Positions 30,379-48,696 of a stretch of DNA of 48,696 bases are shown one piece after another. This stretch comes from Flavobacteriales bacterium (GTDB lineage Bacteria > Bacteroidota > Bacteroidia > Flavobacteriales_C > GCA-002722245), in assembly GCA_023251075.1 (NCBI GenBank), contig JAHEZM010000027.1, positions 1-48,696 of the forward strand, given 5' to 3'. The notes beneath the pieces were generated by a model that had not been told where the DNA came from, did no database searches, and saw only the letters and a program-made list of their open reading frames with translations. Within the stretch, counting starts at the first letter, position 1. Each line of letters begins with the position of its first letter. Position numbers and translations under genes: made by a program.

Positions 30379-30450
30379 CTTCTAAACACTATGGTTTTTT
30401 CCTCGGAAGAGAAGAGTGTGTAAGTGCCTGTGTTTTAGGAAGAGGATGGA
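30379..30450 (+). repeat. DUF559-linked repeat, copy A (degenerate)
   Basis: 72 nt from CTTCTAAACAC to GAGGATGGA. In the last 56 nt it differs from copy B at 11 positions, mostly G/C to A/T changes that weaken the central palindrome. It starts 89 nt before copy B in the same orientation. It looks like an old, decaying copy. Confidence 0.85.
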
Positions 30451-30467
30451 TCAATAAATTGTACATA

Positions 30468-30539
30468 CTTCTAAGCACTGCGGTTTTCTCCTCGGAGGAG
30501 GAGAGTGTGCAAAGGCATGTGCTAGGGGAAGAGGATGGA
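30468..30539 (+). repeat. DUF559-linked repeat, copy B
   Basis: 72 nt from CTTCTAAGCAC to GAGGATGGA, with the central hairpin TCTCCTC-GGAG-GAGGAGA. Its 56-nt core (30484-30539) matches copy D at 53 positions. It ends 51 nt before the DUF559 ATG and is inverted relative to copy C, so B and C bracket the gene. Confidence 0.9.
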
Positions 30540-30590
30540 TTTAAAAAGATTATTTTCCTTTTCCTACCTTAGCGCCACTAACTAAACATT

Positions 30591-30968
30591 ATGCATCAAA
30601 ATTTTTACAACAAGCAGTTGCGTAGCTTTGCTCGCGGTATGCGAAAAGACTCCACTCATTCGGAAATTTATTTATGGACAAATATTCTGAAAAATAAACA
30701 AACAGGATATACCTTTTTACGACAAAGAAGCATAGCAAATTATATAGCAGATTTTATGTGTAGAACATTGAAATTGATTATTGAGGTTGATGGTTATTCA
30801 CATAATTTCAAATACGAACAAGACCTAGAACGCGATAGAAAGTTATTGGAATTGGGTTATAAAACTATACGTTTTCATGATGATGAAGTAATGCATGATT
30901 TACAGAATGTAGAAAGAACAATTATGCATGAAATAAATGAAAGAGAAAAGGAATTGAAGCTTTTTTAA
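30591..30968 (+). CDS. DUF559 (Vsr-like) endonuclease-domain protein
   Basis: A 125-residue PD-(D/E)xK-superfamily protein of the DUF559 family. It contains the family pattern in order: an early helix with STHSEIYLWTNIL, FLRQRSIANYIADFMC (the DF acidic residue), LIIEVDGYSHNF (ExD catalytic pair), RDRKLLELGYKTIRFHDDEV. These positions match the active-site layout of Vsr-type nucleases. Most of the protein is one catalytic domain with no extra DNA-binding part. It starts at an ATG 51 nt after repeat B, and its TAA directly abuts repeat C. No DNA methyltransferase is near, so a Vsr repair role coupled to Dcm is unlikely here. Association with repeats suggests repeat processing or spread. Confidence 0.9.
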   Translation: MHQNFYNKQLRSFARGMRKDSTHSEIYLWTNILKNKQTGYTFLRQRSIANYIADFMCRTLKLIIEVDGYSHNFKYEQDLERDRKLLELGYKTIRFHDDEVMHDLQNVERTIMHEINEREKELKLF

Positions 30969-31040
30969 TCCATCCTCTTCCCCTAGCACATGCCATTCCG
31001 CACTCTCCTCCTCCGAGGAGAAAATGCATCCTGCTTAGAC
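30969..31040 (-). repeat. DUF559-linked repeat, copy C (inverted)
   Basis: Reverse complement of the repeat, from TCCATCCTC to the CTTAGAC end. Its 56-nt core (30969-31024) is identical to the core of copy D. The outer 16 nt have diverged, keeping only the TCTAA-like end. It begins at the base after the DUF559 stop codon. Confidence 0.9.
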
Positions 31041-31102
31041 GATCTGGTGTGAGAAATTTTGCAAAAACAGATGAACCTCCAGTCTTTTTTATGTTGAATA
31101 TA

Positions 31103-31174
31103 CTTCTAATCACTACGGTTTTCTCCTCGGAGGAGGAGAGTGCGGAATGGCATGTGCTAGGGGAAGAGGATGGA
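31103..31174 (+). repeat. DUF559-linked repeat, copy D
   Basis: 72 nt from CTTCTAATCAC to GAGGATGGA. The core at 31119-31174 is identical to copy C in opposite orientation, with 62 nt between the two units, so C and D can form a large hairpin. The 106 nt after it, before the DsbA-like gene end, hold nothing I recognise. Confidence 0.9.
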
Positions 31175-31280
31175 TTTTGTATGAGATTATTGTAGGATTC
31201 CTTTACCTGTTATGTGGTAATGCACATACAGAATGACGAATAAAGCGATATTCACAAATAATATATCATCTTCATTAAGG

Positions 31281-48357: not shown

Positions 48358-48397
48358 TAGTTGTTTTTTGAGTAGAGGTTTAATTCAATGATTTTTT

Positions 48398-48577
48398 ATT
48401 GTTGATCCATCTCCCTGCCTGCGCGCATTCCCTCGCACCCCTCTCCTCCGAGAGGGAAACTCATACCCTGAAAATTATTCAAATAAAAAACAAATCTTGA
48501 CTTTAAGCAGCGTACATTCCCTCTCGGAGGAGAGGGGTGCGAGGGAATGCGCGCAGGCAGGGAGATGGATCAACAAT
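48398..48577. repeat. Perfect 60-bp inverted repeat with 60-nt spacer, related to the DUF559-linked repeats
   Basis: The left arm 48398-48457 and right arm 48518-48577 are exact reverse complements over 60 nt, separated by 60 nt (48458-48517). Each arm holds TCCATCTCCC, a GC-rich middle with GCATTCC and CGCAC, and the palindrome-like TCTCCTCCGAGAGGGA. In the same order, repeat C at 31 kb has TCCATCCTC, CCATTCC, GCAC and CTCCTCCGAGGAG. I read this as a second subfamily of the same element. The right arm contains the stop codon of the partial gene that follows. Confidence 0.9.
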
Positions 48578-48696
48578 ATAATTTTCTGTTGCTCCAAGTT
48601 TCTGGACTCTCAGAAAACCAAATTTTTACCTGTGGCCACACTTCCCTGAACAAAGGTGAATTTCTATAGTTATTCAGGTCATCTTCACTATCCCAA
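48570..48696 (-). CDS. C-terminal fragment of a protein, possibly antibiotic biosynthesis monooxygenase-like
   Basis: The last 126 nt on the minus strand are open and protein-like for 41 residues: SEDDLNNYRNSPLFREVWP then VKIWFSESPETWS. The gene runs off the right edge. The pattern of a Trp/Ser-acidic pair, Tyr-Arg, Leu-Phe, and a late Trp-Ser is similar to the end of ABM-fold small monooxygenase-like proteins, but the fragment is short. The TGA stop (48570-48572) lies inside the right arm of the inverted repeat. Confidence 0.6.
   Translation of the reverse strand, partial: WDSEDDLNNYRNSPLFREVWPQVKIWFSESPETWSNRKLYC

Follow-up and report, generated by a model that had tools for sequence, protein, structure and literature searches.

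Our results suggest that the window, by which we mean the whole stretch of 48,696 nt analyzed here, probably harbors a homing-like mobile element that encodes a nuclease: a DUF559 gene with hairpin ends, of which solitary repeats would be the non-autonomous derivatives. At the level of sequence comparison, an association of DUF559 genes with hairpin repeats, a matching of repeat tails to nuclease subfamilies and the insertion of whole repeat-gene-repeat units are demonstrated; we infer that the nuclease itself plays a catalytic part in spread. The tie would provide both a candidate motor for the repeats and a candidate function for the widespread and barely studied DUF559 family.

The DUF559 locus and its repeats

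The gene (30591..30968, forward strand) encodes a PD-(D/E)XK, Vsr-like nuclease of 125 amino acids in which the residues conserved in the family are intact. The sequence-only reading had placed four repeats around this single gene, with A, B and D direct and C inverted, and alignment confirmed their positions. Copy A (30379..30453, forward) is degenerate, with 77% identity to B over 84 nt and no significant DNA hairpin. Copy B (30468..30542, forward) has its hairpin core at 30488-30500 and a purine tail ending in GAGGATGGA, and copy D (31103..31177, forward; core 31123-31135, tail 31160-31174) is 92% identical to B over 84 nt. Copy C (about 30967..31024, reverse strand) does abut the end of the gene, as had been noted, its start falling at the stop codon TAA (30966-30968); 58 nt of it are 100% complementary to D. 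The folding z scores were significant for B (-3.5) and C (-3.1), weak for D (-1.2) and indicative of no hairpin for A (0.65). The description of these repeats as 72-nt palindromes holds for a core of 13 nt but not for the whole 72 nt. This core, CTCCTCGGAGGAG, had six matches in the window, representing three places read on both strands, against an expectation of 0.02 from shuffled sequences.

A further pair of repeats, additional to these four and missed earlier, lies at 48394..48581 with no nuclease gene. It belongs to a related subtype and forms a REPIN-like doublet, with 65-nt arms that are 98% complementary, two copies of the core CCCTCTCGGAGGAGAGGG (chance expectation, 0) and tails, CAGGGAGATGGA, that point outward; the same tail also flanks DUF559 genes in sister species. 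Elsewhere in the same genome, the window repeat forms solitary inverted pairs on two contigs (C14 and C4), and one further DUF559 gene was found (contig C7; 72% identical), with a repeat pair adjoining it. The spacing of the inverted pairs in this genome, about 69-91 nt, is REPIN-like.

Membership of the window protein in the DUF559 family is clear from its match to Pfam PF04480 (E 6e-30; 103.7 bits against a gathering cut-off of 20.6). An AF2 model of the protein (pLDDT, 87.7) gave VIA Z scores of 16.6 to the solved DUF559 protein 3hrl, 14.0 to the homing endonuclease I-Bth0305I (3r3p; 94 residues at 2.2 A) and 10.4 to Vsr. Judged by this model, the protein would have the Vsr-like catalytic fold that characterizes EDxHD homing endonucleases. 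The gene is free-standing, outside any intron or intein; the neighbors scanned against Pfam gave a weak phospholipase-like match, DsbA and an oxidoreductase, and PADLOC returned no match to a defense system. Vsr repair endonucleases, by comparison, nick T:G mismatches and lie beside a Dcm-type methylase.

Association of DUF559 genes with flanking repeats

In a first comparison, made with no control, most of 30 DUF559 loci from the same class had shared repeats in both flanks. We then turned to 80 DUF559 loci from a genome-wide collection, picked by protein similarity alone and mostly from Proteobacteria. A repeat common to both flanks was present for 66 of 78 DUF559 genes and for 39 of 767 other ORFs of the same 80 loci, i.e., controls taken from within the same genomic stretches, with related species not independent (blastn E<=1e-3; Fisher p 1e-57). 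DUF559 genes therefore do sit beside repeats above chance, a check that the sequence-only reading had proposed. At a stricter threshold (E<=1e-6) the counts were 62/78 and 9/767, and at E<=1e-3 a shared flanking repeat was not found for about 15% of the 78 DUF559 genes. Hairpin repeats also flank, on at least one side, the DUF559 genes carried on plasmids of Sphingomonas, Qipengyuania, Azospirillum, Sinorhizobium, cyanobacteria and Deinococcus. As the orientation and number of the flanking repeats vary among DUF559 loci, no fixed element ends can be assigned outside the in-frame cases described below.

Bacterial genes often have hairpins near their ends, and those found here might be ordinary terminators or mRNA stability elements of a small gene. 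We regard this as very improbable. The hairpins lie on both sides of the gene, belong to families with multiple copies elsewhere and are about 33-fold denser near DUF559 than in the rest of the same loci (3.3 versus 0.10 per kb), and the proposal is contradicted by hairpins that form part of the translated reading frame of essential genes, for which copies a terminator role is ruled out. A search of Rfam gave no match to an RNA element.

Relationship to BoxC/PIT/intrastrand-triplex repeats

The typical repeat is a hairpin with a pyrimidine stem and a purine stem, followed by a purine tail (CCCTCTCCC-loop-GGGAGAGGG-TTAGGGTGAGGG). Mirroring of the stem by the hairpin's own tail was perfect in 62% of cases, as against 29% when tails are swapped, and none of 300 swaps reached the observed level. 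Such mirroring is the rule for a purine intrastrand triplex and the design of the BoxC/PIT/TM repeats of E. coli. The order of pyrimidine stem, purine stem and mirror purine tail is strongly kept in relatives and only loosely so in the window repeats, which have a 7-nt stem with mismatches. Motifs of this triplex type occur at 2.4 per kb near DUF559 and at 0.05 per kb elsewhere in the same loci, a difference of about 50-fold.

Knowledge of BoxC/PIT/triplex repeats in E. coli goes back to the 1990s. They are present in many copies in >260 genomes, and their spread has been unexplained (PMC4666352). Holder and colleagues reported in 2015 that mobility genes were never found around the E. coli triplex repeats (PMC4666352); here, by contrast, a nuclease family is tied to repeats with the same hairpin and purine-mirror tail. 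In E. coli itself, the DUF559 gene ycjD adjoins a pyrimidine/purine hairpin with a purine-mirror tail, which we identify from its sequence as a probable BoxC/TM repeat. Similar repeats lie on both sides of gonococcal NGO0050, the gene of the solved structure 3hrl. The presence of ycjD in E. coli K-12 makes the proposed motor and the proposed function testable. In the open PMC literature, to which our search was confined, we found nothing that connects these repeats with DUF559 or ycjD; as subscription journals and preprints lay outside it, priority is uncertain.

Among 119 Enterobacterales genomes, a BoxC-like pattern was present in 8, and a clear DUF559 match was found in 5 of these 8 and in 9 of the 111 others (Fisher p 5e-4, with kinship not corrected for). 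The sequence-only reading had held that repeats with the same recent amplification in relatives without any DUF559 gene would tell against it, and this was in part what we observed: DUF559 was not detected in the other three of the eight genomes, one of which, G163, carries 62 repeat copies in an assembly of many contigs. Either the gene has been lost, or it was missed in a broken assembly, or the repeats can multiply without DUF559; these three exceptions count against a strict dependence of the repeats on DUF559. A BoxC-like population of 34 copies in Variovorax consists mostly of inverted pairs with a spacing similar to that in the genome of the window.

As a separate observation, Erwinia mediterraneensis (G043:C1) contains 82 BoxC-like copies, many of which alternate in tandem-like arrays that contain as many as a dozen units.

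Concordance of nuclease subfamily and repeat tail

Three DUF559 subfamilies and three tail motifs can be distinguished in the genus of the window. Subfamily I, which includes the window protein, has the tails GAGGATGGA or GGAGATGGA, subfamily II has AAGAGGGATT and subfamily III has GAGGTGGTT. Subfamily and tail were concordant in 11/11 loci, which is 1 in 9240 arrangements, a figure that should be taken as descriptive since the motifs were chosen after reading the same flanks. Protein similarity also correlates with flank similarity in the genus (Mantel rho 0.39, p 0.002), and two genomes (G001 and G003) each hold all three subfamilies and tails. The three tails were absent near the RAYT (Y1_Tnp) genes of the same genomes. 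We considered and rejected a RAYT-driven REP as the source of these repeats; the RAYT loci of the same genomes are without them.

In-frame insertions and empty sites

About one-quarter of the DUF559 matches in Bacteroidia are inside ORFs of >500 amino acids, and most of these are in-frame insertions. These are units of repeat, DUF559 and repeat whose hairpins are included in the translated frame; LeuRS has them at two sites, and the other hosts are MetH, RecG, RecJ, a protein with a SpoIIE domain and restriction-modification proteins. Pfam detected no splicing domain in these cases, which contain only hairpin-encoded peptides and DUF559. How LeuRS and other essential enzymes tolerate a nuclease domain is a question raised by these inserts.

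The LeuRS gene of G001 carries a hairpin-DUF559-hairpin unit in frame, and the same site is intact and hairpin-free in five relatives (G000, G002, G003, G004 and G028), with the LeuRS of G000 being about 90-92% identical to that of G001. Alignment of these genes indicates that the whole unit entered a coding site of G001 that had previously been empty. The comparison of loci with and without the element, which had been suggested earlier, thus yielded a clean empty site for LeuRS but none for the window element, because the neighboring gene order differs in relatives. No relative keeps the gene order of the window, and in G001 the PLC gene is directly followed by an ABC transporter gene. The region of the solitary pair on C14 is likewise not conserved in the relatives searched for an empty site. 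E. coli strains lacking ycjD were rejected as a clean empty site, as the eefRABCD operon occupies the position (PMC12817139).

In other families, too, inserts occupy the two LeuRS sites. Most of the in-frame inserts fall in one clade, which holds 13 of them (support 99/94). AU tests of whether inserts that share a LeuRS site are monophyletic gave p values of 0.07 and 0.57, and either homing from one lineage or separate arrivals may account for each site.

One alternative is that the repeats are pre-existing targets, spread by something else, into which DUF559 genes land as some insertion sequences (IS) do. Within the same genome, these hairpins are indeed the exact location of an unrelated IS, and a few genomes have repeats with no detected DUF559. 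We nevertheless consider this unlikely: the empty LeuRS sites are hairpin-free, so both repeats came with the gene, and subfamily-specific tails within one genome would demand matching target preferences. A slightly less likely alternative assigns DUF559 a Vsr-like housekeeping role, as a nuclease of repair or control that resolves or removes hairpin or triplex structures and for that reason is retained next to the repeats. The predicted Vsr-like fold would suit such a role, and triplex repeats are associated with instability in E. coli (PMC4666352). A repair enzyme has no need, however, to adjoin its substrate, to be multicopy or to bring hairpins into LeuRS, MetH and RecG. Polymorphism within a species would also be unexpected of it, and most of the ycjD locus is present in 3362 of 5426 E. 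coli genomes.

Additional in-frame segments were noted. The LeuRS of G000 has an extra segment of about 70 amino acids (G000:C42:126470-126709), which comparison ruled out as a DUF559 element, and that of G004 (contig C10) has one of about 60 amino acids in the same loop and of unrelated sequence. In some Proteobacteria (L135, L141, L159 and L180), DUF559 elements lie just upstream of recF, rlmB, tilS and meaB and share an open frame with the gene.

Proposed mechanism and comparison with known systems

We propose that the hairpin repeats would be the ends of a DUF559 mobile element and that solitary repeats and inverted pairs would be its non-autonomous offspring, related to DUF559 in the way that REPs and REPINs are related to RAYT. 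The nuclease may recognize the folded hairpin with its tail, or alternatively the target, and may nick or cut DNA, opening the target. Repair or replication would then copy the hairpin-gene-hairpin unit into the target, in the manner of a homing endonuclease, and hairpins alone could be mobilized in trans by the nuclease. One lineage, in Bacteroidia, would have become specialized in entering essential genes in frame. That repeat spread is tied to DUF559, as the sequence-only reading had proposed, finds support far outside the window in the enrichment across phyla, the match of subfamily and tail, the insertion of whole units and the presence of RAYTs without these repeats; the nuclease may also, as that reading inferred, recognize the hairpin and drive its copying. 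More broadly, we see about an even chance that DUF559/YcjD proteins are the missing mobilizers of BoxC/PIT/intrastrand-triplex repeats across bacteria. They would constitute a second, independent system beside RAYT-REP, with a homing-type PD-(D/E)XK nuclease, triplex-forming ends and one lineage in frame in essential proteins.

REP sequences are spread by RAYT tyrosine transposases. The DUF559 loci resemble REP/REPIN-RAYT systems in having a single gene between hairpin repeats, subfamily-specific pairing, and further copies elsewhere in the genome, either solitary or as inverted pairs with a spacing of about 70-90 nt. A repeat population matched to a gene subfamily, as in a REPtron, was found at all 11 loci of the genus. 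In contrast, the HuH Y1 transposase that a REPtron has between its repeats is replaced by DUF559, a PD-(D/E)XK/Vsr-like nuclease. The absence of a tyrosine transposase, as noted earlier, is true of the locus but not of the genome, where two Y1_Tnp genes lie at other places, without these repeats. Read directly, neither B nor D contains the tetranucleotide GTAG or CGTC, so that the DUF559 repeats differ from REPs in having no such tag and also in having a tail that is the purine mirror of the stem. Because the transposase and the tag are both missing, the DUF559 system is RAYT-REP-like but lies outside REP/RAYT.

The nearest fold outside DUF559 is that of I-Bth0305I, an EDxHD/Vsr-like homing endonuclease which, like the elements described here, is associated with conserved sites of essential genes. 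Unlike that type, the DUF559 element uses no intron or intein, remains in the protein or between genes and has its own hairpin ends. Rickettsia palindromic elements (RPE) are palindromic elements found in frame in protein genes; the in-frame DUF559 elements share this mode of insertion but encode a nuclease. CGTC-tagged REPs, which are said to have no dedicated transposase (PMC3733652), are palindromic like the DUF559 repeats, from which the CGTC tag is absent.

Finally, a multicopy IS with the end GGTAATGACCCATATTAAGGC was observed at four positions in G000 (C4:34652, C7:1, C32:1 and C21:101918) inside DUF559-type hairpins, in either the loop or the stem, a placement similar to that of some insertion sequences in REPs. 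At a fifth position, C43:2, its location in such a hairpin is less clear. Contigs C4, C7, C32 and C43 of G000 end or start inside this IS.
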